Below are positions 20,838-40,095 of a stretch of DNA of 44,802 bases, in pieces; position 1 is the stretch's first letter, and each line of letters begins with the position of its first letter. Source of the DNA: an uncultured Cytophagaceae bacterium (GTDB lineage: Bacteria; Bacteroidota; Bacteroidia; Cytophagales; Spirosomataceae). The notes beneath the pieces were generated by a model. That model saw only the letters and a program-made list of their open reading frames with translations, was not told where the DNA came from and made no database searches. The stretch is from assembly GCA_903898715.1 (NCBI GenBank), contig CAIUGL010000177.1, forward strand, positions 1 through 44,802. The letters run 5' to 3'. A program made the translations under genes and the position numbers.

Positions 20838-21191
20838 CTATTGAACCGCAACCATGTCGCGCTTCACTTCAGTTAGGATATTAAATGATTTAGAAGTCAG
20901 CATTTGTTTACGTGCGTTTTGGACTTCTAGTCGGTATTTTCCGTCAACTAAACTGGCTAGATTGAATAATTTCTTCGAAGAAATGACTTCTTGATGAATG
21001 ATATTATTATCTGCATCTCGGATGATGACATATACATTCGATTTAGGTTCAGCGCTGACCAAAAATTTAAATTTTCCTACTTGATCGATACTTACTGGTA
21101 AAGTTACTTCTGCTCCCTTCGCGGCAGAAACCACAGACATGCTAGCTGCAAAAAATGCGACAGCCATAGCGTTTTTGATGTGCTTTTTCAT
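20838..21191 (-). CDS. Small secreted protein, DUF3244-like, function unknown
   Basis: 117 residues. The first 25 or so form a signal peptide (MKKHIKNAMAVAFFAASMSVVSA), so the mature protein of about 90 residues is exported. The rest alternates short hydrophobic strands (KFKFLVSAEPKSNVYVIIRDADNNII, KYRLEVQNARKQM) and looks like a single beta-sandwich, similar in style to DUF3244-type secreted proteins of Bacteroidota; the family match is by eye and uncertain. A longer reading frame from 21293 is rejected because its extra 34 residues precede the signal peptide and overlap a strong promoter. Single-gene unit. Confidence 0.7.
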   Translation of the reverse strand: MKKHIKNAMAVAFFAASMSVVSAAKGAEVTLPVSIDQVGKFKFLVSAEPKSNVYVIIRDADNNIIHQEVISSKKLFNLASLVDGKYRLEVQNARKQMLTSKSFNILTEVKRDMVAVQ

Positions 21192-21241
21192 AAGCGTTTT
21201 TGTTTGGTACTGTTTAGGCGGATTAGTTCCGTTTGCTGATT

Positions 21242-21270
21242 CAAATGTATGCGTTTGAAAAACTCCGCAA
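21242..21270 (-). promoter_or_regulatory. Promoter of the small secreted-protein gene
   Basis: On the minus strand TTG (21270-21268), 18 nt, then TACATTTG (21249-21242): a full match to the Bacteroidota consensus. The start codon at 21191 lies about 50 nt downstream. Confidence 0.65.
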
Positions 21271-21387
21271 ATTAAATCCGCATTAAATTTCACTTTTTCA
21301 AGAAAGTTCTTCTATAAAAAATTATAATTCTTGGAATTATACCAAAAAACGGAACGGAAAAGGTAAATTTTTAGGAACGAATCGCTG

Positions 21388-21437
21388 TGTTACCAAATTG
21401 TTAAGAAAAGATTACTCGATTTAACAATTTGGTCATA
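21388..21437 (+). promoter_or_regulatory. Pho-box-like repeats before the TonB receptor gene
   Basis: Two pairs of 6-nt half-sites, each at 11-bp spacing, in opposite orientation: TGTTAC (21388) with TGTTAA (21399), and TTAACA (21421) with GTCATA (21432). The arms also form an exact 13-bp inverted repeat, ACCAAATTGTTAA (21392-21404) and TTAACAATTTGGT (21421-21433). The 11-bp phase and the GTCATA/TTAACA sequences resemble PhoB and PhoP sites of E. coli and Bacillus. Binding by a PhoB homologue is inference. Confidence 0.45.
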
Positions 21438-21449
21438 AAGGCATAATCT

Positions 21450-21487
21450 ATGGGTAATTAGGCTACCCATGGTAAGCAGTAGTTTTG
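21450..21487 (+). promoter_or_regulatory. -7 element and palindrome before the TonB receptor gene
   Basis: TAGTTTTG at 21480-21487 matches TAnnTTTG, but no TTG is found at the expected distance; instead ATGGGTA (21450-21456) and TACCCAT (21464-21470) form a perfect inverted repeat over that position. This fits a promoter that needs an activator or is blocked by a repressor. The whole 329-nt gap from 21192 to 21520 holds two divergent promoters and no other gene. Confidence 0.5.
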
Positions 21488-21520
21488 TGTTATTAATAAA
21501 AATAACACACCAGTATTCTC

Positions 21521-24322
21521 ATGAAATCAGTCCTTAGTAAAACCCTTTTATTTTTAGTTATTTCTGTGAGCGCTTTCGCTCAAAATGCAGGTACTCTTCG
21601 TGGTACAATTAAAGACACCAAAACCAAAGAAGACATTATCGGAGCAACGATTCTAGTTCAAGGAATCAACAAAGGAGCGGCTACCGACATCAATGGATTT
21701 TTCTCTTTCGCCAAATTGCCAGCAGGTTCTTATTCTTTAAAGATTTCATTCGTTGGATATGAGACTAAGATTTATGAAAATGTCAAAATTTTAGCTGACC
21801 AAGTAACGGAATTGAATCTTAATCTGGCCGAAGAGTCAGCAACCTTAGCTGAAGTTAAAGTTGTTGCTCAAAAATTAACCAATACGGAGGTTTCAGTTAT
21901 CTCCGAGATTAAGGCTGCTCAATTAGTTGTCAGTGGTATTTCTGCCGCACAAATTACCAAAACCTTAGACCGTACAGCAGCTGAGGTTGTGAAGCGTGTA
22001 CCGGGAGTTACGATTTTTGGGGAGCGTTTCATCAACATTCGTGGATTAAATGAGCGTTACAATACGGTACAGTTGAACAATGCATTTGCTCCATCGATGG
22101 AAACAGATGTGCGTTCATTCTCATTCGACATCATTCCTGCAGGTCAAATTGACCGTATTTTAGTATTTAAATCTCCTTCAGCTGAAATTCCAGGGGAATT
22201 CGCAGGTGGTGTCGTTAAAATCTTCACTAAGTCTATTCCGGAGAACAACTTTTTAACCTTAGATATCTCCAGTGCATATCGTGAGGGAACGACAGGATCT
22301 ACTTTTTTCGCTACAAAGAATTCTAATTTAGCGTGGTCAGGTTTCAATCAAGGTTATTTTGATTTACCTAAATCTTTCCCTGCCTCACGTGCTGCACTTT
22401 TAAATTCGGGACCTGCGGGTTTAGATGCTATCGGGGCGTCATTAAAAAATAATTGGACGCCTGTTGAATCGAATGCGCTTCCCGACATGCGTGCTTCATT
22501 ATCCGGTGGATTTAAGTTTGATTTGGGATCTACCAAATTGGGTAATGTAACAGCCATCAATTATTCAAATACGCGTTCTACATTTCAAATGGCGCGTAAT
22601 GATTGGGGTTTTAGTAACATAGGTGTTACTGGCGAGCCTGATGCGGTATTCAACTTTTTAGATAATCAATATACTAATGCGATTCGTTTGGGTGTTTCAA
22701 ATAACTGGTCGGCTCGTTTTGCCAATGGTTCAGTCATTGAATTTAAAAATCTATTCAATCAATTAGCCAATACACAATATATTCAACGTGCTGGTTTTGA
22801 TAACGGCGCAAATTGGGATATCCGTTCATTCGATCAAGTTTATCGTGGAATTTATACGGGTCAGTTAACTGGTCGCCATGACCTACAAGCTGGTACATTG
22901 AAAGTTGATTGGATGGTGGGTTATAATGCAGCTTATCGCCAGCAACCTGATTACAAGCGTTTTAGATATAATGTGGATGGAGCAAATGCAAGTTTGTTTA
23001 TTCCAAATGGTGCAGCGCAAACAACGGTATTAGGAAGAACTTATATTGACATGACTGAGTCTTCTTATACAGCGGCATTTAACGCTGTGAAGAAAATTGA
23101 TTTATCAGACGGGAAGGAACTTGAAGTAAAGTGGGGTGCATTTTATGAGGATAAGGTACGTGATTTTGGTGCTCGAAATATTGGATACGTGAAGTCTACT
23201 CCTTCTTTCCAAACCACCTTGCCTATTGATCAATTGTTATCACCACAAAATTTTAACTCGAGAACAGGTATTCGTTTAGATGAGCAAACAAATCCAAATG
23301 ACTCCTACGACGCGAGTAATACCTTATTGGCTGGATATGCATCTGTTAATTATGCATTAGGGAAGAAATTCAACATCATTGCAGGTGTTCGTGCGGAGCA
23401 GAATAGTCAGAAATTGAATTCTGCTGACTTAGTTGGCAAGGCAATCAATTACGACAATACACGCTTGGATTTATTACCTTCCATGAATGTTACGTACAAC
23501 TTCACTGAAAAGTCATTGTTGCGTTTAGCATATGGAAAGACATTAAATCGTCCTGAATTCCGCGAGCTTGCACCATTTTCGTTTTATGATTTCGTAAATA
23601 ATCGGACGGTATCGGGTAATCCAACATTGAAGAATGCGAACATTCAAAATTTTGATTTCAGATATGAATTCTATCCAACGCCATCTGAATTAATTAGTAT
23701 TGCGGCGTTTTACAAAGATTTCAAAAACCCCATTGAAGTTGTTTTCGCGTCGGGAGCTAACCCACTTTTGAATTTCTCGAATGCACAGTCGGCATTCTCT
23801 ACAGGATTAGAAGCTGAGATTCGTAAGAATTTAGGTGCGGGTTCTCCTAACTCTATATTGGGTCGCACGAGTTTGGTACTTAACGGAACGTACATCTACA
23901 GCCGCGTAAAATTGGATGAAAAGCTGGCAGCAGATCAATCAGATAATCGCCCATTGCAAGGACAATCTCCTTATATCGTCAATGCAGGATTAAATTATAA
24001 CGATACGCAGAAAGGCTTGCAATTGAATTTTAATTACAACGTCATTGGTAAACGTATTTTTGCGGTGGGTAACAACTTTGGTGCTCCATACCCAGATTGG
24101 TATGAGATCCCAAGAAATGTAATTGATTTTAATTTCTCTAAGCAGCTGACTAAAGTCATCATGATTAAGGGGGGTGTTAGCGATATCTTAAATCAAGGAA
24201 ATATCATTTTGCAAGACGGAAATCAAGATCAGGTATTCGACCGCAATCAAGATCAAATTATTCAGAACTATGCGCCAGGTCGTGTAGCTTCTTTAGGACT
24301 TATAATTTCTCCATTTAATTAA
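21521..24322 (+). CDS. TonB-dependent outer-membrane receptor (CarboxypepD-reg-like N-domain)
   Basis: 933 residues. A signal peptide ends near residue 20 (SVSAFAQ), followed by a carboxypeptidase-regulatory-like beta domain (about 23-95, GTLRGTIKDTKTKEDIIGA), then the plug (FINIRGLNERYNTVQLNNA, EFAGGVVKIFTKS) and a 22-strand type barrel to the C-terminus. Such receptors carry ligands across the outer membrane using TonB energy. The next gene is not a SusD homologue but a large beta-helix-like lipoprotein, so the pair differs from Sus-type glycan systems. The downstream phosphatase and PiT transporter point to phosphate or phosphorylated compounds as ligand; this is inference. Confidence 0.92.
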   Translation: MKSVLSKTLLFLVISVSAFAQNAGTLRGTIKDTKTKEDIIGATILVQGINKGAATDINGFFSFAKLPAGSYSLKISFVGYETKIYENVKILADQVTELNLNLAEESATLAEVKVVAQKLTNTEVSVISEIKAAQLVVSGISAAQITKTLDRTAAEVVKRVPGVTIFGERFINIRGLNERYNTVQLNNAFAPSMETDVRSFSFDIIPAGQIDRILVFKSPSAEIPGEFAGGVVKIFTKSIPENNFLTLDISSAYREGTTGSTFFATKNSNLAWSGFNQGYFDLPKSFPASRAALLNSGPAGLDAIGASLKNNWTPVESNALPDMRASLSGGFKFDLGSTKLGNVTAINYSNTRSTFQMARNDWGFSNIGVTGEPDAVFNFLDNQYTNAIRLGVSNNWSARFANGSVIEFKNLFNQLANTQYIQRAGFDNGANWDIRSFDQVYRGIYTGQLTGRHDLQAGTLKVDWMVGYNAAYRQQPDYKRFRYNVDGANASLFIPNGAAQTTVLGRTYIDMTESSYTAAFNAVKKIDLSDGKELEVKWGAFYEDKVRDFGARNIGYVKSTPSFQTTLPIDQLLSPQNFNSRTGIRLDEQTNPNDSYDASNTLLAGYASVNYALGKKFNIIAGVRAEQNSQKLNSADLVGKAINYDNTRLDLLPSMNVTYNFTEKSLLRLAYGKTLNRPEFRELAPFSFYDFVNNRTVSGNPTLKNANIQNFDFRYEFYPTPSELISIAAFYKDFKNPIEVVFASGANPLLNFSNAQSAFSTGLEAEIRKNLGAGSPNSILGRTSLVLNGTYIYSRVKLDEKLAADQSDNRPLQGQSPYIVNAGLNYNDTQKGLQLNFNYNVIGKRIFAVGNNFGAPYPDWYEIPRNVIDFNFSKQLTKVIMIKGGVSDILNQGNIILQDGNQDQVFDRNQDQIIQNYAPGRVASLGLIISPFN

Positions 24323-24355
24323 TTCAATCAATTTAAATTCTAAAAAACAAAAGTG

Positions 24356-26125
24356 ATGAAACGCTTACAAACAAACATGTTTAAAGTATTCGCAATGTTA
24401 GCTATCGCGGTAGTAACATTAGCAAGTTGCGAAAAGGAAGAAGAGATTTTTCCAGTTCCAACAATCTCTACGTCTGGTACGCTAGCTGGTATTCCAGGAG
24501 CTACAGTTACTGTGAAGGCATCAATTAATGCACCGGCAGGAATTAAATCGATTATCGTTTTGAAGAATGGAACTCCATTTGATTCAAAAATTATGGCTGG
24601 CGAAAAAACTGCCGAATATTCTAAGGATTATGTTGTAGAAGGTACCGTAGGTTCTACAGTAAACTTTACAGTTCAAGTAACGGATGTTAAGAACCAAGTT
24701 TCTTCATTAGTAGCTATTCCTGTTACGGTTTCAGTTGTTCCACCTAAAACCATTGTGGATGTGGAAGGTGTAATTGAAGGGAATGTGACTTGGACAAAAG
24801 ATAAGATATATCGATTGAAGGGTTATGTTCGTGTAGGTGAAGAGGCTGTCTCTGGTACAGTAACGAAAGTAGGTCAGCTAACCATTCAAGCGGGAACAGT
24901 TATCATTGGCGACAAAGCAACAAAAGGTACATTAATTGTACAGCGTGGATCGAAGTTGATCGCAGAGGGTACGGTTTCTGAGCCGATTATCTTTACATCA
25001 GCTGAAGGAATTGGTTCACGTTCTCCAGGAGATTGGGGTGGTGTTGTTATCTGCGGAAAAGCACCTAACAATTTAACAGGTGTTGCGGAATTAGAAGGTG
25101 GTTACAAAGGATTCCACGGTGGTACTGCTGCTGATGATAATTCAGGCTCATTAAAGTATGTGCGTATTGAGTATGCAGGTATTCCATTGAATCCAAATCA
25201 AGAGATTAACTCATTAACGATGGGTTCTGTAGGTTCAGGTACAAAGATTGAATACATCATGGCTTCATTTGGATTAGATGATTCATTTGAGTGGTTTGGT
25301 GGAACTGTAAATTGCAAGTATTTAGTTGCTTACAAAGGTACGGATGATGATTTTGATATGGACAATGGCTATTCAGGTACAGTTCAGTTTGGTTTAGGTT
25401 ACCGTGATGGTAATTTGGCTGACGTGTCAGGTTCAAATGGTTTTGAAATTGATAATGATGCAGCTGGATCAAACTTAACTCCATTCACATCTGCAACGCT
25501 TGTCAACTTCTCTATTATTGGAGCAAAAGGAAAGTCGTCTGATTATTTAGATGCCAACTTCCAAAATGGTGCGCAATTACGTCGTAATGCTAAAGTGAAA
25601 ATTTACAACACGTTTATGACAGGTTATCCTGCAGGTTTATACATTGATAGCCAGCGTGGTGCTGCAAAAACGAATGCGGCAAATGGTGAGTTAGTAGTTA
25701 AGAATATGGTCATTGCAGGTACTTCGGGTTGGGGATCAACTGGATTTACATCGCTTAACTCTGGTCTTTATGGATTTGGTGTACCGGTAGTAGATGAGGA
25801 GCAAATCGCACGTACAGGTTCTTCAGGAGCGGTAGCATCAAGACCTATTGAAATAGGTACGGGTGTTAAAGCATCTGACTGGTTCAAGGCGATTGCCGGC
25901 AACAAAACATTGACTTCGACTGCAAATACAGGAATTTCATCTGCATTATGGTCTGCACGTCCAACATTAACCTTGACTGCTGGAACTTCAGAGTCTTTGA
26001 TTGGTACAGCATTGCCAAGCTTACCAGGGACAGTTGCAACTGATTTTGTGGGTGCATTTAAGGATTCAGATTGGACAGCTGGTTGGGCTGAATTCAATCC
26101 TAATTCGATTGTATACATCAAGTAA
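24356..26125 (+). CDS. Large surface lipoprotein with repeat-rich C-domain, partner of the TonB receptor
   Basis: 589 residues, starting 31 nt after the receptor stop. A lipoprotein signal ends in lipobox LASC (Cys25), followed by acidic EKEEE, often seen on surface-exposed lipoproteins of Bacteroidota. Residues of about 35-130 look like an immunoglobulin-like domain; from about 140 to the end there are repeated turns (GTVIIGDKATKGTLIVQRGSKLIAEG, PIIFTSAEG, DWGGVVICG) that suggest a right-handed beta-helix. Similar proteins are commonly encoded next to TonB receptors without SusD; the function is not established. A GTG one codon upstream is possible, but the ATG at 24356 is preferred. A terminator follows. 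Confidence 0.8.
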   Translation: MKRLQTNMFKVFAMLAIAVVTLASCEKEEEIFPVPTISTSGTLAGIPGATVTVKASINAPAGIKSIIVLKNGTPFDSKIMAGEKTAEYSKDYVVEGTVGSTVNFTVQVTDVKNQVSSLVAIPVTVSVVPPKTIVDVEGVIEGNVTWTKDKIYRLKGYVRVGEEAVSGTVTKVGQLTIQAGTVIIGDKATKGTLIVQRGSKLIAEGTVSEPIIFTSAEGIGSRSPGDWGGVVICGKAPNNLTGVAELEGGYKGFHGGTAADDNSGSLKYVRIEYAGIPLNPNQEINSLTMGSVGSGTKIEYIMASFGLDDSFEWFGGTVNCKYLVAYKGTDDDFDMDNGYSGTVQFGLGYRDGNLADVSGSNGFEIDNDAAGSNLTPFTSATLVNFSIIGAKGKSSDYLDANFQNGAQLRRNAKVKIYNTFMTGYPAGLYIDSQRGAAKTNAANGELVVKNMVIAGTSGWGSTGFTSLNSGLYGFGVPVVDEEQIARTGSSGAVASRPIEIGTGVKASDWFKAIAGNKTLTSTANTGISSALWSARPTLTLTAGTSESLIGTALPSLPGTVATDFVGAFKDSDWTAGWAEFNPNSIVYIK

Positions 26126-26134
26126 AATATTTCC

Positions 26135-26170
26135 AGGTCGCTGCCTAATCCTAGGTGGCGACCTTTTTTT
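26135..26170 (+). terminator. Intrinsic terminator after the large lipoprotein gene
   Basis: AGGTCGC (26135-26141) pairs with GCGACCT (26158-26164); the inner part also pairs (CCTA/TAGG). Seven T end the hairpin. The next gene starts 7 nt later, so some read-through is probable. Confidence 0.8.
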
Positions 26171-26176
26171 ACACCA

Positions 26177-26725
26177 ATGAAAAAATTAATCCTAGTTTGT
26201 TTATCGACGCTTTATCTCTTGAGCGCTTGTAACTCGAAAGATGAAGTAGGTTATTACTTCTCAGATTCAGATCGTGATACTTTGTTGGTGAATATCATCA
26301 GCATCATCAGTGAAAGACCTGCTTATGCTACTGATTCAACGAAGCATCAAGCTAAGTTTCGTTCCGAGTTTGTCAGTAGATTAAGTCGTTTTCATTTTGT
26401 CAAACTGACGAAAGATAGTTTAGGTAGGTATACATATTTAATCAGTAGACCTGTTGCTGGCCGAATTGATTTGCGTCGTGGAGTTTTGGGAACTTTTACA
26501 TTAAAGTCTAATTCGTTACAAATAGATGATTTTGAAGAAGTAGCCAATACCCCCCATTTTGATGAAGAAACGGTCAAACAACGAGGAGAATTTTTATTTA
26601 AAGAATTAGTGAAAAAAGGGAATATTATTGAATACATCACGATGAAACATTATGTAGAATGGCCAGATGCCTCACTTATCTATGATAAGAAAAAGAGATC
26701 TTGGGTATCTACCATTGGCCTTTAA
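26177..26725 (+). CDS. Small lipoprotein of unknown function
   Basis: 182 residues with a lipoprotein signal ending in lipobox LSAC (Cys18, MKKLILVCLSTLYLLSAC). The mature part is mixed alpha/beta with no motif I recognise; charged segments (FEEVANTPHFDEETVKQRGEFLFKELVKKG) suggest a soluble domain. It lies within the phosphate cluster, between the TonB receptor pair and the phosphatase, and is probably transcribed with the receptor by read-through. No function is assigned. Confidence 0.75.
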   Translation: MKKLILVCLSTLYLLSACNSKDEVGYYFSDSDRDTLLVNIISIISERPAYATDSTKHQAKFRSEFVSRLSRFHFVKLTKDSLGRYTYLISRPVAGRIDLRRGVLGTFTLKSNSLQIDDFEEVANTPHFDEETVKQRGEFLFKELVKKGNIIEYITMKHYVEWPDASLIYDKKKRSWVSTIGL

Positions 26726-26753
26726 TACGATTTTATATTGGTGTAATAGAGAA

Positions 26754-26782
26754 AATGTCGGTGGGGCTTCCTGCCGGCATTT
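26754..26782 (+). terminator. Weak hairpin after the small lipoprotein gene
   Basis: AATGTCGG pairs with CCGGCATT with one G-U, extended by GG/CC pairs; only a short mixed T stretch follows. Could end or stabilise the transcript. Confidence 0.4.
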
Positions 26783-26808
26783 CTTAGTTTAGACCAAAAT
26801 TTAATTCG

Positions 26809-26845
26809 CTGTTAATCTTTCTGTTAAATGTGTAAATTAGCTTTG
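26809..26845 (+). promoter_or_regulatory. Promoter with TGTTAA repeats before the phosphatase gene
   Basis: CTGTTAA occurs twice, at 26809-26815 and 26821-26827 (12-bp spacing), followed by TAGCTTTG at 26838-26845 (a TAnnTTTG match). Read on the other strand the repeats are TTAACA, as before the TonB gene. No TTG is at the -33 position; the repeats lie there instead, as expected for an activator-dependent promoter. Confidence 0.45.
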
Positions 26846-26869
26846 ATAAAGAAACCAACCCCATTTAAC

Positions 26870-27931
26870 ATGAAGTGGAAATTTACCTTACTAGCTGCAT
26901 TGCTCTCTTTTGGTGCGATAGGGCAGCAATCAGCTGATCATCGTGTGATTGTTATAACGACCGACGGGTTTCGTTGGCAAGAAGTATTCGCCGGATTAGA
27001 CGCAGAGATCGTTAAAATGAAGAAGTATCATCATGGGGACAGCTTACGCTTGATCGAGACTTATGGTGGCAAAACAGCGGAAGAACGCAGAAAGAAATTA
27101 ATGCCCTTTATGTGGTCCACGATTCAGCAAAAAGGCCAAATACACGGAAATCGGACTGTGGGATCTCTCGTTAATGTCGCTAACCCTTATTGGTTTTCAT
27201 ACCCAGGATATAGTGAAATTTTAACGGGTCAAGTGGACGTTGAGGTTAATTCAAATGAGTACAAACCGAATCCGAACACGAACTTTTTTGAGTACTTGAA
27301 CTCGTTACCGGCCTACAAAGGTAAGGTGGCTGCATTTGGTGCTTGGGATGCATTTGATCGTATCTTAAATGAAAAGCGTTCCGCTTTTCCAGTAATTAAT
27401 GCATTTGATTCATATCACATTTATGTCAATACGAAAGACAGTGAATTGCTATCGCGCATGACGAAAGATTCCTTTCGGGCTTTTGGCAACGCGGAAGTAC
27501 TGGACGTTTTCACGCATTACCAAGCATTGGATTATTTAAAAAATAAGAAACCCAAAGCGATGTATATTTCATACGGCGATACGGATGAATTTGCGCATGA
27601 GGGTACATATAATCACTATCTAGATGCAGCCCATCGAGTAGATGCGTTCATTTCAGAGATCTGGAATTTTGTGAATACAGATCCTGATTACAAGGGGAAA
27701 ACTACGTTGTTATTTACAACTGACCATGGTCGTGGCGATGCTGTTAAATCGGAATGGACCTCGCACGGAGAAAAGGTGAAAGACTGCCATGAAATTTGGT
27801 ATGCCATGATTGGTGCCAATGTCCCTTCATTAGGCGAGGTGAAGACGTCCGAGCAGGTATACCAAAAAGAACTCATTCACAAGGTAGCCGCTGCGATGGG
27901 ACAAACATTTAGAAGTCAAAAGCTCGATTAA
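26870..27931 (+). CDS. Secreted alkaline phosphatase/phosphodiesterase-superfamily enzyme
   Basis: 353 residues. A signal peptide (to GAIGQ, about residue 19) exports it. The alkaline phosphatase/sulfatase/nucleotide pyrophosphatase fold is indicated by metal ligands TTDGFRW (Asp32), GDTDEFAHEG (Asp239, His243), TTDHGRG (Asp285, His286) and TSHGE (His299); the probable nucleophile is Ser115 in YPGYSEILTG. It may release phosphate from esters in the periplasm; the substrate cannot be named. A longer frame from 26828 adds residues before the signal peptide and overlaps the promoter, so the ATG at 26870 was chosen. It precedes the PiT gene by about 105 nt. Confidence 0.82.
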   Translation: MKWKFTLLAALLSFGAIGQQSADHRVIVITTDGFRWQEVFAGLDAEIVKMKKYHHGDSLRLIETYGGKTAEERRKKLMPFMWSTIQQKGQIHGNRTVGSLVNVANPYWFSYPGYSEILTGQVDVEVNSNEYKPNPNTNFFEYLNSLPAYKGKVAAFGAWDAFDRILNEKRSAFPVINAFDSYHIYVNTKDSELLSRMTKDSFRAFGNAEVLDVFTHYQALDYLKNKKPKAMYISYGDTDEFAHEGTYNHYLDAAHRVDAFISEIWNFVNTDPDYKGKTTLLFTTDHGRGDAVKSEWTSHGEKVKDCHEIWYAMIGANVPSLGEVKTSEQVYQKELIHKVAAAMGQTFRSQKLD

Positions 27932-27958
27932 AAAAGCTTATTTTTCTGACAAGTGTTT

Positions 27959-28006
27959 TTGTTAACAATTCTATAATGTGGAAATGATTGCTTTGCTTTA
28001 AATTTG
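27959..28006 (+). promoter_or_regulatory. Possible promoter of the PiT gene with TTAACA site
   Basis: TAAATTTG (27999-28006) matches the -7 consensus. TGTTAACA (27960-27967) carries the half-sites also seen before the TonB and phosphatase genes, and no TTG lies at the normal distance. Only one clear half-site is present, so the call is tentative. Confidence 0.4.
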
Positions 28007-28036
28007 CTAAATTTCGAATTCTTTAACCCGTTTTTT

Positions 28037-29494
28037 ATGTTCGGACTCGATCCAACTCTCCTCTTTTTATTGTTCTTCTGTCTCTTTGCTGCATGTGCAT
28101 TCGAATTTGTGAATGGTTTTCACGATACAGCTAATGCCGTAGCAACCGTAATTTATACCCATTCTTTGAAGCCTTCGCAGGCAGTAGTTTGGTCGGGATT
28201 TATGAACTTTTTGGGTCTATTAACCGGTGGCGTTGGTGTTACGATGAGTATTATTGGGCTACTTCCCACCGAGCTGCTCATAGATTCCAATGTCTATCAT
28301 TCCATGGCGATGGCTCTTTCGCTATTGTTATCCGCTATTTTGTGGAACTTGGGGACTTGGTATTTAGGTATTCCCGCATCAAGTTCGCATACGCTAATTG
28401 GATCTATTATTGGTATCGGGGTAGGGCACGCGTTGTTGCCTGAAAATTCGAACAAAGGGATATCGGCCATCAACTGGGATAAGGCGATTGAGATTGGACA
28501 AGCATTATTATTGTCACCCTTGTTTGGTTTTGCTTTGGCCATAATCCTCATGTACATATTGAAAAAGTCGATTGCCAATAAAGCTATTTTCAAAGAGCCG
28601 AAAAAGGACACCCCTCCTCCGATGTGGATTCGGGCAATTTTAGTGGCTACCTGTACCTTAGTTTCTTTTTTCCATGGACGTAATGATGGTCAAAAAGGAA
28701 TTGGTTTAGTGATGGTTATTCTAATTGCCTTCTTACCCGGATATTTCGCGGTCAATACAAATTTAAATATACCTGAAGTCAAGGCGAGTTTGGCGCAGGT
28801 ACAGCAGATTGTCGCGAAAATAGATACAGTTCCGCTTTCTGAAAAAGAAGTGGAGAGTTATCACAAAGTGCTGGAGTCTAGTGCTGATTTAAAAGTTATT
28901 TTGACAGATGGCGCTACGCCGGCCAACTTGACAACAGAACAGAAATTTGATATTAGAAAAGCTGCATTAACTATCAATAAAAATGCAAAGAAGCTCATTG
29001 AAAGTGAGTCAGTTGCACTTTCAGCATCCGATTTGAATGCACTTAAATTAGCAACAGCGGGTAAAAAAGCACCTTTCTTTAGTTTTGGCGCTAGCTCATC
29101 TAGTGGTATGGCTGGCGTTACAGACTTCGCTCCTGCTTGGGTGATGTGGATTGTTGCGCTATCACTTGGTCTTGGAACGATGGTTGGCTGGAAACGAATT
29201 GTAGTAACCATTGGAGAAAAAATCGGTAAAAACCATTTGACCTATGCCCAAGGAGCATCCGCTGAATTAATCGCATCATTGACTATCGGTTTAGCCACGG
29301 CCTACAAATGGCCAGTAAGTACAACGCACGTGCTATCTTCAGGTATTGCGGGTACGATGGTTGCCAACCGCGGCATTAAAAATCTGCAAGGTGGAACGGT
29401 GAAAAGTATCGTTATGGCGTGGATTTTAACGCTTCCCGTGACGGTCATACTCTCTGCGACACTGTTTGTTTTCTTCCGTTGGATTACGGGGTAA
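28037..29494 (+). CDS. Inorganic phosphate transporter, PiT family
   Basis: 485-residue inner-membrane phosphate/cation symporter. The two PiT signatures are clear: GFHDTANAVATV (residues 27-38) and FFHGRNDGQKGIGLVMV (211-227). About ten membrane segments surround a hydrophilic central domain (about 240-350, EVKASLAQVQQIVAKIDTVPL). A TTG frame opening at 28004 would add 11 residues and overlap the -7 element, so the ATG at 28037 was chosen. It imports phosphate released by the upstream secreted enzyme (inference). Confidence 0.93.
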   Translation: MFGLDPTLLFLLFFCLFAACAFEFVNGFHDTANAVATVIYTHSLKPSQAVVWSGFMNFLGLLTGGVGVTMSIIGLLPTELLIDSNVYHSMAMALSLLLSAILWNLGTWYLGIPASSSHTLIGSIIGIGVGHALLPENSNKGISAINWDKAIEIGQALLLSPLFGFALAIILMYILKKSIANKAIFKEPKKDTPPPMWIRAILVATCTLVSFFHGRNDGQKGIGLVMVILIAFLPGYFAVNTNLNIPEVKASLAQVQQIVAKIDTVPLSEKEVESYHKVLESSADLKVILTDGATPANLTTEQKFDIRKAALTINKNAKKLIESESVALSASDLNALKLATAGKKAPFFSFGASSSSGMAGVTDFAPAWVMWIVALSLGLGTMVGWKRIVVTIGEKIGKNHLTYAQGASAELIASLTIGLATAYKWPVSTTHVLSSGIAGTMVANRGIKNLQGGTVKSIVMAWILTLPVTVILSATLFVFFRWITG

Positions 29495-29515
29495 GTATAC
29501 GACTCATAAAATAAG

Positions 29516-29546
29516 AAAGCCGAGGGAAATATTCCTTCGGCTTTTT
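29516..29546. terminator. Terminator between PiT and the convergent glycosyltransferase gene
   Basis: AAAGCCGA (29516-29523) pairs with TCGGCTTT (29537-29544), inner GG/CC pairs add to the stem, and T follow. Located between two convergent genes, usable in both directions. Confidence 0.8.
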
Positions 29547-29578
29547 GCATTTACTTCATCATTAAATTAAACGATTTT

Positions 29579-30721
29579 TTACCAGCTGGTGGATAAGCCC
29601 CCTTCATTCCGGGGACTAAATGTAGTATCTGCCGCTGGTTTACGAATTAAGTCTGTCATGTGATAGGCAAAATTGGCCTGCGTCACCCACTTCTGAAATG
29701 TATCTTGGACTGAGGCGTGCTTCGGTAAATAGTCTTTAAAAATACTTAGGTCAAAGCTTCGCGCCTGAACCCCCGCACCGGATAATTCCCCATCATGCGC
29801 ATTGATCATCTGCTCAATGTGATTGGGTACAGGAACCATCATGACGGGTTTGCCTAAGTACATGGCTTCTGCCACAGACTCAAATCCTGCCGTTGAAATT
29901 AGTCCCGCACAATGCGTCATTTTGGCTAGGTATTTTTCAGCATCAATGGGATGAAAGGTCAACGAATCTGAATAGTGATATTCAGTTTTGCGTGTGGGGT
30001 TATCCCAAAAGCAATCCAACTTCACCTCCGGATTTTGTGCCGACCAGCCCATGATTTCATCCGCTAGTCGGTAATGCGTCAAATATGCGAGCCACCTGTC
30101 TCCAGATTGCGGTTGGATTGATTTAACTTCTTGGCGTAATAAAGGGGGAACTGTAATAATATTGCGTTTAGGGTCATTTGGCATAGTCCGGAAGGACAAT
30201 CCCAATAATTTACGGGAACCTATCGCTGTAATTTTGGTATTGATATTTAATAAAAATCGATCTACCGCTTTTTTGGAAATTGTTTCAAAATGTTTACTCA
30301 GCAATAAATACTGATGACCTACCGACATGCACGGAACCTTAGCACCTGATTTCAGATTGTATAAACCGGTTATCGACTCGTAAAAATTGATGATTCCATC
30401 CGGTTGTAATTCTTCAATGAATTCCCCTAACTGAGTCGCACTATTCCAGTAAGTGCCAAACTTGGTAAAAGCCTGCAAGGCAGTTTTTCCTAATTGCACC
30501 GACTTCCCTTTGCCGTAATTAATTGAGGGGCTTTCGTATTGAATGAGGGGGGTGTCGCCTATAAAGTGTGCAAAAAAGGGCGGAATCTTCCTTCCTTGGA
30601 ATGAACCCACGGCATAACCGACCACTTCATGACCCGCTTCACGGGCAATCTGCGTTAAGGAGATTGCTTGCGTTAAATGACCGCGACCTTCTCCTTGGAT
30701 GGTAAAGATGAATCTGCCCAT
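29579..30721 (-). CDS. Glycosyltransferase (MurG/GT1-like), probable glycolipid synthase
   Basis: 380 residues of the GT-B fold. N-domain loop GEGRGHLTQAI (residues 10-20) and C-domain donor site GFESVAEAMYLGKPVMMVPVPNHIEQ are typical of MurG and MGDG-synthase-like enzymes. Its start ATG lies 49 nt inside the end of the upstream metallophosphoesterase gene, so the two are tightly linked. PlcP genes in other bacteria are often next to a glycosyltransferase (Agt) that makes glycosyl-diacylglycerol from the released diacylglycerol; here this is a likely but unproven role. A lipid A or capsule role cannot be excluded. Confidence 0.75.
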   Translation of the reverse strand: MGRFIFTIQGEGRGHLTQAISLTQIAREAGHEVVGYAVGSFQGRKIPPFFAHFIGDTPLIQYESPSINYGKGKSVQLGKTALQAFTKFGTYWNSATQLGEFIEELQPDGIINFYESITGLYNLKSGAKVPCMSVGHQYLLLSKHFETISKKAVDRFLLNINTKITAIGSRKLLGLSFRTMPNDPKRNIITVPPLLRQEVKSIQPQSGDRWLAYLTHYRLADEIMGWSAQNPEVKLDCFWDNPTRKTEYHYSDSLTFHPIDAEKYLAKMTHCAGLISTAGFESVAEAMYLGKPVMMVPVPNHIEQMINAHDGELSGAGVQARSFDLSIFKDYLPKHASVQDTFQKWVTQANFAYHMTDLIRKPAADTTFSPRNEGGLSTSW

Positions 30722-31485
30722 ATTGCCGTTAATTCGGATTTTAAATCATAACTCGGATAGTCAATCAATAACCACTCTCCTTCATGTGTTTCTACGAGTG
30801 CGGTTAATGACTCCACCCAGTCCCCTGAATTCATGTAGGTGATTCCGTCTATTTGCTTGATTTCAGCTTTGTGAATATGTCCACAAATAATGCCATCGGC
30901 ACCTTTTGCTTTCGCTAATTCCGCTAATTTCTCCTCGAAATCGGAGATGAAATTTACGGCCGCTTTAACTTTTTGCTTGATGACTTGAGATAGTGAATAG
31001 TACGGTTTTCCTTGCCAGCTGCGGTATTGATTATACCATTTATTCAACCACAATAGAAACGTATAACCAATGTCTCCTAAATAGGCAAGCCATTTCATTT
31101 GACTCGTGATGCTATCGAAGATATCGCCGTGTGTGATGAAATATTTTTTACCATGCGTGGACAACATGTAATCTTGTCGGATCGAAAATTGCTTTCCAAT
31201 TTTCAAGGGCAAAATCTGTTCCAAAAAGTCATCGTGGTTACCGCGTAGGTAAATAACTTCCGTATCAAAGCGGTCCATCATTTTAAGGACGGCGCGAAAG
31301 AATCCGGTATGTTTCTTTTTCCAAGAACCTCCTTTTTTTAATTGCCAACCATCAATGATGTCTCCATTTAGGATTAGCTGGTGGCAGGAATTTGCTCTTA
31401 GGAATTCATTAACTTCTTTGGCTTTTGCTCCTTTACTCCCTAGGTGTAAGTCGGAGATGACGATTGTCTTGTAGGTTGGCCGCAT
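30673..31485 (-). CDS. plcP: Calcineurin-like metallophosphoesterase of the PlcP (phospholipase C)/LpxH-like family
   Basis: 270 residues, COG2908-like. All metal motifs are seen: SDLHLG (Asp12, His14), GDIIDGW (41-47), RGNHDDF (81-87), THGDIFD (118-124) and CGHIHKAE (201-208). The middle segment KWLAYLGDIGYTFLLWLN, PYYSLSQVIK and AVNFISDFE, with the end segment MNSGDWVESLTALVE, match my memory of PlcP, which cleaves phospholipids under phosphate starvation, more than classical LpxH. It overlaps the glycosyltransferase gene by 49 nt and lies opposite the phosphate transporter. If it were LpxH, it would act in lipid A synthesis; the longer length and partner gene speak for PlcP. Confidence 0.72.
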   Translation of the reverse strand: MRPTYKTIVISDLHLGSKGAKAKEVNEFLRANSCHQLILNGDIIDGWQLKKGGSWKKKHTGFFRAVLKMMDRFDTEVIYLRGNHDDFLEQILPLKIGKQFSIRQDYMLSTHGKKYFITHGDIFDSITSQMKWLAYLGDIGYTFLLWLNKWYNQYRSWQGKPYYSLSQVIKQKVKAAVNFISDFEEKLAELAKAKGADGIICGHIHKAEIKQIDGITYMNSGDWVESLTALVETHEGEWLLIDYPSYDLKSELTAIWADSSLPSKEKVAVI

Positions 31486-31500
31486 GGCATGTAATTTGGT

Positions 31501-31540
31501 TTAACAAAAATACATGGCGTATATAAGGCCTGAATTAACG
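31501..31540 (-). promoter_or_regulatory. Possible promoter of the plcP-glycosyltransferase pair
   Basis: On the minus strand TATTTTTG (31512-31505) matches TAnnTTTG about 20 nt before the ATG. TGTTAA (31506-31501) overlaps its end and CGTTAA (31540-31535) lies in the -33 area, both resembling the half-sites of the other phosphate genes. No TTG at the normal distance. Confidence 0.35.
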
Positions 31541-31576
31541 GAGCATTATGAAATCGTAAACACTTGAGATTACTTA

Positions 31577-31639: not shown

Positions 31640-32920
31640 TTAATCGATATTCGCTGTCTCCAGTTTTGGCGCCAAGGTGTAAATGATCGCCCAAGCTAAT
31701 ATGTAAGCACTTCCGCACAATAAGAAGATGATATTATAGCCATCATTGATATTACCTAATAACTTATATTTATCAAGTAGAGCCCCCACAATCATCGGGA
31801 AGAAAATACCACCCACAGATCCAGCCATCCCTCCAATACCAATCACCGAACTAACGGCCTTCTTCGGAAACATGTCTGTCGCAATCGAATAAATATTCGC
31901 ACTCCAAGCCTGATGCGCTGCCGCTGCTAAGGAAATTAAGGCAACCGCTTGCCAGATGTTTTCACAGTAACGCGCCAACATAATCGGCACAACCGCTAAG
32001 GCAAATCCCAGCATCGAATACTTACGCGCCTTAAATGATGGCCATCCCTTATTAATCAAATAGCCAGACAACCAGCCGCCACCGATACTCCCAATGGTCG
32101 TTGCCGTATATACAATAATCAATTCCAAACTCGGCTTCTTCAAATCCAATTGGAAACGCTCACTGAAATACGAAGGCAACCAGAACAAGAAAAACCACCA
32201 AATTGGATCCGTAAACATCTTTCCAAACACAAATGCATACGTCTGCTTAAACCCAAATAAACGACTCCATTTAACCGGATCCTGATTCTCATCTTTCTCC
32301 TCTTTATCCGCATGAATGTAATCGAACTCTTCCTTAGAAAGCATCTTGTGTTTCGAAGGAACCTCGTAATAAAACCACCAAAAAATCAACCAAATAAATC
32401 CAATGGCCCCAGTGACAATAAAGGCCATTTCCCAACCGTAAATACCTAAAATCCAAGGCACCAAAATAGGGGCAGCTACAGCGCCAATATTTGCTCCCGA
32501 ATTAAATATCCCCGTCGCTAAAGCACGTTCATTTTTAGGAAACCATTCAGCCGTCGTCTTAATCGCCGCAGGGAAATTACCCGCTTCGCCTAGGCCCAAC
32601 AACCCACGCATAAATGCAAAACTCATTGTGCCTGTCGCCATCGCATGCAACATCGCCGCGATACTCCAAACGACAATCGAAATCGAATAGCCAAGCTTAG
32701 TTCCAATGCGATCAATAATCCCACCAAAACCCAATAAACTGATGGCATATGCCGCCTGAAATGTGATGACAATATTCGAATAGTCCGTCTCTGACCAGTT
32801 GAACTGATCTTCTAACACGGGTTTTAATAAACCAATCACCTGGCGATCCAAGTAATTAATCGTGGTGGCGAAAAATAGCAATGCGCAAATTCGCCAGCGG
32901 TACGTTCCTATTTTATTCAT
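31640..32920 (-). CDS. MFS transporter, hexuronate (ExuT-like)
   Basis: 426 residues with about twelve membrane segments in the major facilitator fold, anion:cation symporter group. Typical ExuT features are NYLDRQVIGLLKPVLEDQF in the first TM, RGLLGLGEAGNFPAAIKTTAEWFPKNERALATGIFNSGANIGA and the cytoplasmic loop near residues 200-225. Last gene of the hexuronate operon, 24 nt after eda. It likely imports galacturonate and glucuronate. Confidence 0.85.
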   Translation of the reverse strand: MNKIGTYRWRICALLFFATTINYLDRQVIGLLKPVLEDQFNWSETDYSNIVITFQAAYAISLLGFGGIIDRIGTKLGYSISIVVWSIAAMLHAMATGTMSFAFMRGLLGLGEAGNFPAAIKTTAEWFPKNERALATGIFNSGANIGAVAAPILVPWILGIYGWEMAFIVTGAIGFIWLIFWWFYYEVPSKHKMLSKEEFDYIHADKEEKDENQDPVKWSRLFGFKQTYAFVFGKMFTDPIWWFFLFWLPSYFSERFQLDLKKPSLELIIVYTATTIGSIGGGWLSGYLINKGWPSFKARKYSMLGFALAVVPIMLARYCENIWQAVALISLAAAAHQAWSANIYSIATDMFPKKAVSSVIGIGGMAGSVGGIFFPMIVGALLDKYKLLGNINDGYNIIFLLCGSAYILAWAIIYTLAPKLETANID

Positions 32921-32944
32921 GGTTTAGAGGGTTTTGGGTGAGGT

Positions 32945-33607
32945 TTATAAGCCCCGATAAATTTGTATTAAATCACTAATCGTATTCGAAATTCCTTGGT
33001 AATCTTGTTTGGCAATTAACGCAGGTGGAAATAATTGCGATCCCATACCCACGACAGCGGCTCCTGCATCAAACCAGGTTTTCATGCTCTCGTGCGTCGG
33101 CTCCACACCACCCGTCACCATAATTTTTGAATGCGGCATCGGTCCTTTAATCGCTTTCACAAAAGCTGGCCCGACCACATTGCCTGGAAAAATCTTCACA
33201 ATCTTCGCACCCAACACTTCAGCATTACGAATCTCCGTTAAGGTCATCGTCCCCGGCATCCAAGGCACATCATGTTTGGCGCAAATTTCACCTACTTCAG
33301 GAGTTGTGAAGGGCTGTAGCATGAAATCAGCACCCATTTGAATGAATTCAGACGCTTGTTTGGCGTCATAAATGGTTCCAATTCCTAATACCAAATCCGG
33401 GCATTCCTGCTCACAATAATCGGTTAACTTGGCAAAAATCGCCGGCGCTTCCACCCCGCGATTGGTAAATTCAAACACGCGAATTCCTCCATCGTAACAG
33501 GCTTTTAACACCGATTTGGCAACGCCCAAATCTGCATTAAAAAATAAGGGAACAATGGGTGTCTCTGCAATGCGCTGGTAAACCACCGCCGAACTATTTC
33601 TAGCCAT
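32945..33607 (-). CDS. eda: 2-dehydro-3-deoxy-phosphogluconate aldolase (KDPG aldolase)
   Basis: 220-residue class I aldolase: KDPG to pyruvate plus glyceraldehyde 3-phosphate, last step of hexuronate breakdown. Active-site Glu46 in VFEFTNRG, LGIGTIYD, and the Schiff-base Lys138 in GAKIVKIFPGN are visible; phosphate is bound by TGGVEP and the GMGSQLF stretch. Two nt after kdgK in the operon. Confidence 0.93.
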   Translation of the reverse strand: MARNSSAVVYQRIAETPIVPLFFNADLGVAKSVLKACYDGGIRVFEFTNRGVEAPAIFAKLTDYCEQECPDLVLGIGTIYDAKQASEFIQMGADFMLQPFTTPEVGEICAKHDVPWMPGTMTLTEIRNAEVLGAKIVKIFPGNVVGPAFVKAIKGPMPHSKIMVTGGVEPTHESMKTWFDAGAAVVGMGSQLFPPALIAKQDYQGISNTISDLIQIYRGL

Positions 33608-33609
33608 AA

Positions 33610-34620
33610 TTATCTATTTAACCGGCCACTCAAGTCGCCTTTCATTACTGTTTCTATTTCATCTAAGTTGGCCAAATTAATGTCCCCCTCAATCGTATGC
33701 TTCAATGCCGATGCCGCCACCGCAAATGCCAAGGACTGTGCCTCGTCCGCATAAATCAAATTTCCGTAAATATATCCCGCCATAAATGCGTCTCCACCTC
33801 CAATACGGTCTACAATTTGCGTAATCTCAACGGTATCAGATTTCAATACTTTATCGCCATCAAACGAAACAGCTGAAAGCGTATTTTGCGATGCCGAAAT
33901 TTGACCACGTTTGGTATTGATGATTTTCTTTAAGCGTGGGAATTGACCCATGATTTGCTTGCAAACGGAATGCCAACCGCTCTTGGTGCTGCCATCAGGG
34001 ACGATACCCAAAATATCTTCAGCATCTCCTTTGCCACACACAATGATATCACAGCCTGCAATTAATTCCGGCATAACTTCTTGAACCGTTTTGCCATATT
34101 TCCATAAATTTTTACGGTAGTTCACATCCGCTGAAACCGTGATGCCCATGGCATTTGCCGTAGCAATCGCATCGCGCAAGGCTTGCGCAGCAGATTCTGA
34201 GATGGCAGGGGAAATGCCTGTCCAATGGAACCAACAAGCATCTTTTAATATTTCAGTCCAATTAAATTCAGCCGGATCCAAATTGGCAAATGCCGAATCA
34301 GACCGGTCATACGTCACTTTACTCGGGCGCATCGCTGCACCAAACTCCACAAAATATAGACCTAGACGGCCTTCGCCATAAACCATGTCCGAGGTATCTA
34401 CACCCACTTGCGCATAATATCCTGCAGCGGCTTTGCCTAGTTCATTCGCTGGGAAGCGCGTCACATGTTTGGCAGGAATCCCTAAATGGGCTAAACCTCC
34501 CGCGACATTTGCCTCACCACCACCATACGTGATGTTAAGTGATTGCGCTTGTATAATGCGACCATGTCCCGGAGGGCTTAAGCGGCCCATGATTTCTCCG
34601 AAGGTGACTACTTTTTTCAT
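33610..34620 (-). CDS. kdgK: 2-dehydro-3-deoxygluconokinase (PfkB family)
   Basis: 336 residues. Phosphorylates KDG to KDPG. PfkB features: N-terminal VVTFGEIMGRLSPPGHGRIIQA, GGGEANVAGGLAHLG, and the C-terminal signature DRIGGGDAFMAGYIYG with the catalytic Asp and the anion hole. The substrate call rests on the context between uxaC and eda. It starts 2 nt after the uxaC stop, so translation is probably coupled. Confidence 0.9.
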   Translation of the reverse strand: MKKVVTFGEIMGRLSPPGHGRIIQAQSLNITYGGGEANVAGGLAHLGIPAKHVTRFPANELGKAAAGYYAQVGVDTSDMVYGEGRLGLYFVEFGAAMRPSKVTYDRSDSAFANLDPAEFNWTEILKDACWFHWTGISPAISESAAQALRDAIATANAMGITVSADVNYRKNLWKYGKTVQEVMPELIAGCDIIVCGKGDAEDILGIVPDGSTKSGWHSVCKQIMGQFPRLKKIINTKRGQISASQNTLSAVSFDGDKVLKSDTVEITQIVDRIGGGDAFMAGYIYGNLIYADEAQSLAFAVAASALKHTIEGDINLANLDEIETVMKGDLSGRLNR

Positions 34621-34622
34621 GC

Positions 34623-36026: not shown

Positions 36027-36031
36027 AGGAT

Positions 36032-40094: not shown

Positions 40095-40095
40095 A

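Follow-up and report, generated by a model that had tools for sequence, protein, structure and literature searches.

A candidate Pho-regulon locus joining surface phosphorus scavenging and membrane lipid exchange in an Aquirufa-type bacterium

Introduction

The locus described here lies around positions 21388–31540 of contig CAIUGL010000177.1, and joins genes for a TonB-dependent receptor, two lipoproteins, a secreted phosphatase-superfamily enzyme, a PiT phosphate transporter, a glycosyltransferase and a PlcP-like phosphoesterase. The window that we analysed is this whole contig (44,802 nt), part of an Aquirufa-type (Spirosomataceae) metagenome-assembled genome (MAG) of 2.3 Mb that is ~86% complete. 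The closest sequences to the window PlcP come from MAGs labelled Cytophagaceae and, among named isolates, from Aquirufa species.

The nearest described systems are the Pi-induced clusters PUSIII and PUSIV of Flavobacterium johnsoniae, which, like the window, combine a TonB receptor with a hypothetical lipoprotein (FI/FII) (PMC8115612). The phoBR cluster of F. johnsoniae also holds a pf04101 glycosyltransferase, and a Pi-induced PlcP and pf01676 phosphatase lie elsewhere in its genome, listed as orphans (PMC8115612). In contrast, the window joins plcP, glycosyltransferase, receptor, lipoproteins, phosphatase and PiT in one 10-kb stretch, the proteins of both organisms being compared by family and description. 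The plcP-agt operons of Alphaproteobacteria and SAR11 resemble the window in having PlcP followed by a glycosyltransferase, and putative Pho boxes occur in plcP clusters (PMC4796936, PMC8231724). Their glycosyltransferase, however, is a GT4 enzyme, whereas that of the window is of the PF13528/MJ1255 type, and the available text of these papers mentions no receptor or lipoprotein partners (PMC4796936, PMC8231724). Phosphonate catabolism clusters with FAD oxidoreductases (PMC10590968) recall a gene island of the window's relatives, which likewise has HpnW (TIGR03364), PhnX-like and Phn-HD genes; the window, unlike these clusters, carries none of the three.

On the regulatory side, the repeat arrays of the locus resemble the Pho boxes of Escherichia coli PhoB and cyanobacterial SphR, in which tandem 8-bp units with a 3-bp linker (11-bp period) stand at a set distance before a promoter element, and the SphR consensus CTTAACCT is close to the CTTAACA of the window arrays (PMC1906773). 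Unlike those Pho boxes, the arrays occur in Spirosomataceae ahead of TAnnTTTG and are predicted from sequence. Bacteroides fragilis PhoB binds the pstC promoter, with no motif given in the available text (PMC3547664). Our literature search, which left subscription literature mostly out of reach, found no TTAACA Pho box described for Bacteroidota and, for plcP with TonB clusters, nothing beyond the papers cited.

Each part of the locus is already known, and the F. johnsoniae PUS clusters already join receptor, lipoprotein, phoBR and glycosyltransferase. A preliminary description of this DNA had regarded the receptor/lipoprotein link as the less familiar part, but this link was already in print for PUSIII/PUSIV (PMC8115612). 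So far as the literature was searched, what is new is the addition of plcP, phosphatase and PiT to this link, the larger island with phosphonate genes in the family, the distant recurrence and the phased array.

Results and discussion

Two probable convergent operons

All genes named in the preliminary description are real: they are open frames at or inside 21388–31540, and Pfam/NCBIfam profile matches agree with the families claimed (Table 1). Of the boundaries drawn there, 21388 is the exact low end of a Pho-box-like array and 31540 cuts the array at 31533–31561 before PlcP. The rightward set comprises the receptor, both lipoproteins, the phosphatase-superfamily enzyme and PiT; gaps of only 30–102 nt between these frames make a single operon likely. 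Convergent with it is the leftward set, in which the PlcP and glycosyltransferase frames overlap by 49 nt. There is no DUF47/PhoU-like frame next to the window PiT.

We consider it probable that these are two convergent operons of one Pho regulon, combining surface phosphorus scavenging with membrane lipid exchange. From the gene families, anatomy, conservation and promoter signature, which are established here, we infer the following course of events. At low phosphate, a PhoB-type regulator would bind phased TTAACA repeats before both operons. The products of the rightward operon (21521–29494) would then act at the surface, where the TonB receptor and lipoproteins may capture or process a phosphorus-bearing compound, from which the secreted enzyme would free phosphate for import by PiT. 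In the leftward operon (31485–29579), PlcP would remove the head groups of phospholipids in the cell's membrane; the glycosyltransferase would turn the remaining diacylglycerol into a sugar lipid, and phosphorus would be saved. F. johnsoniae has homologous kinds of genes that are Pi-induced (PMC8115612). Scavenging outside and lipid saving of phosphorus inside would in this way be linked in one probably co-regulated freshwater locus.

Pho-box-like arrays and promoter phase

In a de novo search for 7-mers repeating at 11-bp distance upstream of phosphorus genes, with no motif assumed, CTTAACA and its shifts ranked first (21/156 phosphorus-gene upstream regions versus 8/668 others). The Pho-box-like repeat unit, CTTAACA-N4 with a period of 11 bp, stands before both operons. 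A strict two-unit consensus (≤2 mismatches) gave five window sites versus 2.35 expected from shuffles, the array of the DUF3244-like gene being the sole intergenic site near the locus. A three-unit matrix was needed, which we trained without the window genome (G000) and two close relatives (G105, G109). Among the 47 window open reading frames (ORFs), this held-out matrix placed the DUF3244-like gene, the receptor and PlcP on top, and the next ORF scored 4.2 (Table 1).

We compared 31 region sets that were picked for holding PlcP, most of which also have the lipoprotein in the vicinity; one genome is divided over two sets. Counts among them are therefore not family frequencies. Over all regions, upstream scores exceeded 9 for PlcP in 27/30, for the receptor in 19/22 and for PiT in 11/18 cases, versus 22/512 for other genes. 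The DUF3244-like cluster was present in 13 compared regions, with an array score >9 in four of them. PiT upstream regions and TAnnTTTG took no part in training the matrix.

TAnnTTTG is the −7 promoter element of Bacteroidota. Among 71 promoters, 50 scored >9, and an exact TAnnTTTG lay within −5 to 45 nt in 32 of these and was lacking in 18. In all 32 measurable sites, which span five genera (Aquirufa and the genera of G014, G022, G062 and G065), it stood exactly 9, 20, 31 or 42 nt past the array, a single 11-bp phase to which both window operons conform (Table 1). The element was found in eight promoters scoring 9 or less, seven of them in phase. For PiT, all eight sites with TAnnTTTG were in phase, the window's weak array (1.7) included. 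Among loci of the genome_contigs collection, the PlcP upstream region scored >9 in 42/77 versus 4/210 random pieces, with TAnnTTTG in phase in 27/27, several of the 77 loci being of the same species as training genomes.

The arrays have the make-up of a Pho-regulon promoter as predicted from sequence, a tandem box of 11-bp period in fixed phase to the promoter. The same signature before both gene sets suggests that both are probably switched on together when phosphate runs out, and joint phosphate control of the two operons is probable on these grounds. A candidate regulator is encoded in the same genome (contig C90, positions 1999–2655); its best model is PhoB, at 211 bits, below the cut-off of 296. 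This PhoB-type protein may bind the arrays; the region upstream of its gene has a score of 11.3, though out of phase. The arrays offer a testable Pho-box model for Bacteroidota.

Several observations weigh against common control. The matrix was trained on other Aquirufa, hence the window sites are homologous to the training sites and not fully independent. Strong arrays stand only before the first gene of each window operon (PiT 1.7, phosphatase 1.1), and in relatives no site >9 was found upstream of the second receptor cluster (0/4), phosphatase (0/14), PhoA (0/7) or Phn-HD (0/15). In the distant genome G245 an array stands before the receptor only (16.8, with no TAnnTTTG in the span), while PhoB scores −3.2 and PlcP 4.1; in the distant genome G309, PlcP scores 10.4 and the receptor −6.2. 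A same-phase excess was seen in other genes too (14/53), which we take to be unassigned island genes or shared divergent promoters. The preliminary description had placed both gene sets under one regulation, which the common Pho-box-like promoter makes credible; the phosphate response, the lipid change and the enzyme activities are predictions.

Identity of the phosphoesterase

The preliminary description had proposed placing the phosphoesterase in a tree with PlcP and LpxH; in our tree it does not group with LpxH. A 100/99 branch in this 57-row tree parts the window gene, other Bacteroidota PlcP and a Sinorhizobium meliloti homologue from E. coli LpxH and from the second COG2908 gene that eight genomes carry, among them the window's own. 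The window PlcP is ~42% identical to the Sinorhizobium protein. We take this S. meliloti row to be SMc00171, from its gene context beside N-acyl-homoserine-lactone (AHL)-synthase and LuxR genes.

Public annotation names most such plasmid genes UDP-2,3-diacylglucosamine diphosphatase, which raises the alternative that the phosphoesterase is LpxH, acting in lipid A synthesis beside unrelated neighbours. The LpxH models do match the window gene weakly, but at 45 and 28 bits they stay far under their cut-offs of 134 and 190, whereas a second COG2908 gene of the same genome, on contig C103, is closer to these models (65.6 and 50.4 bits). Together with the tree split, the model scores led us to reject LpxH, which we regard as a most improbable identity for the window gene. 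Two points count in the other direction. Branches on the LpxH side are long, that of E. coli very long, and the tree program flags long branches meeting; moreover, the second COG2908 copy is itself below cut-off in both LpxH models. A PlcP-like enzyme is still our preferred identity, and it suggests that many Bacteroidota genes named UDP-2,3-diacylglucosamine diphosphatase are more likely PlcP. Within the family, a PlcP homologue was found in 94/101 genomes, 93 of them strong; at phylum level 343/395 genomes had a match, and the weak matches probably represent LpxH.

Two records deserve mention on their own. One Aquirufa MAG (G114:C38, locus L222) has a second PlcP-like gene, 39% identical and on a long branch, possibly on a contaminant contig. 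An S. meliloti record of 3.7 Mb (CP090106.1, locus L113), which bears the label plasmid pSymB, carries the AHL-synthase, LuxR and plcP genes; the label looks wrong, as these are genes of the chromosome.

The glycosyltransferase partner

The glycosyltransferase lies directly downstream of PlcP in 78/80 PlcP loci of the genome_contigs collection; in the two others, from Marivirga and one Cytophagales MAG, no such gene was found within the DNA around PlcP that was examined. The window enzyme matches PF13528, with PF04101 just above cut-off and TIGR00661 (MJ1255) weak and below cut-off. A similar pair occurs in Parabacteroides, where PlcP is 57% identical and the adjoining glycosyltransferase matches the same MJ1255 model. 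No GT4-named model matched the window enzyme; the glycosyltransferase beside a Sphingomonas plcP matched other models, partly GT4-named, all below cut-off. Hence the comparison with alphaproteobacterial pairs in the preliminary description does not extend to the partner enzyme, which is of the PF13528/MJ1255 kind and not a GT4 Agt, the enzyme paired with PlcP in SAR11 and Agrobacterium (PMC8231724).

In F. johnsoniae, both the pf04101 glycosyltransferase Fjoh_0541 of the phoBR cluster and the orphan plcP Fjoh_4577 are Pi-induced (PMC8115612), which by analogy makes a lipid role at low phosphate plausible for the window enzyme. Instead of swapping phospholipid for glycosyl-diacylglycerol, the pair might alter another lipid, such as an aminolipid, a sulfonolipid or a glycolipid that is made constitutively. 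This would fit the difference from GT4 Agt, the number of aminolipids reported for Dokdonia MED134 (PMC4796936) and the OlsH-like gene, a phosphorus-free lipid gene by model name (below cut-off), that adjoins the plcP-glycosyltransferase pair in three relatives (G022, G047, G061). Nevertheless, the window enzyme matches PF04101, the C-terminal domain of GT28, one of the families with known glycoglycerolipid synthases (PMC8231724); the joint Pi induction of PlcP and a pf04101 glycosyltransferase in F. johnsoniae also speaks for the phospholipid exchange. We therefore regard another lipid as a lesser, though serious, possibility.

As a separate observation, an OlsH-like GH3 gene at locus L204 (11667–13229), with homologues in G022 and G061, hints at ornithine-type lipids as another phosphorus-free substitute.

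Receptor, lipoproteins and secreted enzyme

The receptor adjoins the 590-aa lipoprotein gene in 24/24 regions holding that lipoprotein cluster, and the 182-aa lipoprotein cluster is present in 15 regions. Neither lipoprotein has a Pfam or NCBIfam family. In both, the lipobox cysteine is present, followed by lysine and acidic residues (CEKEEE, CNSKDE) that we take to resemble the surface-export signal of Bacteroidota lipoproteins. Seven acidic residues of the 590-aa protein (D309, D310, E313, D331, D332, D335, D337) are invariant in a 25-row alignment. Its AlphaFold-type model (predicted local distance difference test, pLDDT, 87.7) gave eight Foldseek matches at E ≤ 0.001, for the most part to small Ig-like domains. 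Sequence searches of the PDB with single sequences and profiles gave nothing for this lipoprotein or for the phosphatase.

Residues D46, S124, D253, H257, D299, H300 and H313 of the secreted enzyme are invariant in 14 aligned homologues; we assume their assignment to metals by analogy with two-metal enzymes. Its AlphaFold model (pLDDT 80.2) had 406 Foldseek matches in the PDB at E ≤ 0.001, including LtaP, sulfatases, NPP and TAB5 alkaline phosphatase. Modelled fold and predicted two-metal residues place the enzyme in the alkaline phosphatase superfamily. With a TonB receptor beside predicted-surface lipoprotein and phosphatase genes, the locus has the gene content of a phosphate utilisation system (PUS).

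Another reading is that the receptor/lipoprotein pair imports something else, such as a glycan or siderophore, and stands here by accident. In its favour, the FI/FII lipoproteins were modelled as polygalacturonase-like (PMC8115612), a fold that Foldseek did not confirm for the 590-aa lipoprotein. On the other side, the arrays before the receptor, the PhoB/PhoR-type genes beside such pairs in 3/10 distant loci and the Pi-induced receptor/lipoprotein pairs in print (PMC8115612) all point to phosphorus, and we think an unrelated cargo decidedly unlikely.

Conservation of the neighbourhood

The preliminary description had called the locus compact and proposed a search for conserved co-location. 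Compactness holds for the window. The order receptor-lipoproteins-phosphatase-PiT/glycosyltransferase-PlcP with nothing between, however, occurs in the window only among 15 Aquirufa regions, and a larger island is commoner. The order receptor, lipoprotein, phosphatase, PiT is also found in G099, G107, G108, G109, G111 and G116; G122 has it with a single gene added. In nine of the 15 regions the island includes a phosphonate-degradation/SusCD block between PlcP-glycosyltransferase and the lipoprotein/receptor genes, and in some of them also PhoA; a further two regions retain only HpnW. The block comprises HpnW (TIGR03364) and the Phn-HD oxygenase (TIGR03276), both above cut-off, a PhnX-like hydrolase (TIGR03351) below it, and DUF5690 and SusC/SusD genes. 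Outside Aquirufa the full block occurs in four region sets (G049, G094, G062, G037) and a partial one in three.

The compactness of the window most likely arose by loss of this block, which lies between both parts in relatives. HpnW was not found in the window's own assembly, from which we infer the loss, with caution as the assembly is only ~86% complete. G109 keeps HpnW between two PiT genes; two PiT genes also occur in the islands of G107 and G099 (loci L179, L165 and L163–L164 for G109, G107 and G099).

Co-location is loosely kept within the genus and recurs beyond it, in ten family genera and two distant genomes. Of 38 Aquirufa genomes, 20 have PlcP and the 590-aa lipoprotein on one contig within 30 kb; the remaining 18 have them on separate contigs or lack a match to one of them. 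Outside Aquirufa, we considered 85 family genomes with a strong PlcP place (G043, a weak partial match, was dropped). A lipoprotein place was present in every one of them, that of G030 being a partial match confined to the N-terminal part. In 21 of these 85 genomes, belonging to ten genera, lipoprotein and PlcP were no more than 50 kb apart; in 19 the distance was within 30 kb and in 11 within 10 kb. Chance expectation at 50 kb is 1.7 (random placement, 6-Mb genome). As a control, the MFS gene that immediately neighbours PlcP in the window was within 50 kb of it in 0/79 (a count limited to the best listed places, which covered 79 of the 85 genomes).

In 64/85 family genomes PlcP and the lipoprotein are >50 kb apart or on other contigs, which weighs against our preferred reading. 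This and the end-to-end order, confined to the window among the 15 Aquirufa regions, would be expected if two independent loci, each under its own control, had come together accidentally or as the genome shrank. The recurrence in ten genera and two distant genomes, with none in the control, and the same phased promoter signature on both operons argue against such an accident, which we consider unlikely.

In G037, G065 and G088 plcP is directly preceded by a PhoB-type gene; in G062 such a gene is close to plcP but divergent. Within 13 kb, G245 holds PhoB-type and PhoR-type genes (both below model cut-offs), plcP, glycosyltransferase, ppx, ppk, lipoprotein, receptor, DUF47 and PiT. One strand of G309 carries the receptor, a protein in which the lipoprotein-type domain occurs twice, PlcP and glycosyltransferase; a PlcP-glycosyltransferase fusion was looked for there and not found, a stop separating the two. 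In ten distant lipoprotein loci, hand-picked from the best phylum-level matches, the receptor adjoins in nine and PhoB and PhoR matches stand beside the pair in three.

A broader proposal, which we offer tentatively, is that receptor, acidic-motif lipoprotein, PlcP and glycosyltransferase might form one old Bacteroidota phosphorus module under a phased TTAACA Pho box, kept or rebuilt in separate lineages (Spirosomataceae, G245, G309). The lipoprotein would then represent a new surface class that releases phosphate or binds a phosphate ligand and whose action is tied to membrane renovation; it might, for instance, handle phospholipid that the cell itself has shed.

The two-domain protein of G309 (locus L261, 9032–12169) ends in a type IX secretion tail. 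Several other phylum-level matches to the lipoprotein domain lie in long frames, of up to 2326 aa.

Feature list and neighbouring genes

Table 1. Features of the locus, with positions in the window. Array ranks refer to the 47 window ORFs.
Feature	Position	Strand	Evidence or remark
DUF3244-like small secreted protein, divergent, common promoter region with receptor	20838–21293	−	PF11589, E 6e-4, below cut-off
Pho-box-like array before DUF3244-like gene	21388–21416	−	score 11.6, rank 1/47
Pho-box-like array before TonB receptor operon	21420–21448	+	score 10.2, rank 2/47
TAGTTTTG, −7 type promoter element	21480–21487	+	31 nt (9+2x11) past array
TonB-dependent receptor, CarboxypepD_reg-like N-terminal domain	21521–24322	+	PF00593, PF07715, PF13715
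590-aa lipoprotein	24353–26125	+	lipobox C26; Ig-like N-terminal and beta-rich domain with invariant acidic motifs
182-aa lipoprotein	26177–26725	+	lipobox LSAC; without family
Secreted alkaline-phosphatase-superfamily enzyme	26828–27931	+	PF01676/PF01663 above cut-off; residues, Foldseek
PiT inorganic phosphate transporter	28004–29494	+	PF01384, E 7e-86
Glycosyltransferase (PF13528; MJ1255-like), overlapping PlcP	29579–30721	−	profile matches; adjoins PlcP in 78/80 loci
PlcP-like COG2908 phosphoesterase	30673–31485	−	PF00149; tree
TATTTTTG, −7 type promoter element	31505–31512	−	20 nt (9+11) past array
Pho-box-like array before PlcP-glycosyltransferase	31533–31561	−	score 9.2, rank 3/47; next window ORF 4.2

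The true start of the DUF3244-like gene is likely near 21191. To the right of PlcP, the genes at 31640–37483 (− strand) encode an MFS transporter, a KDPG aldolase, a PfkB kinase, the glucuronate isomerase UxaC and a mannitol-dehydrogenase-like protein. This set looks like a uronate catabolism pathway, and adjoins PlcP in some Aquirufa only. Further on, at 37929–41241 (− strand), a peptidase C39/ABC exporter with an HlyD partner lies between a DUF3467 gene and rpoC.

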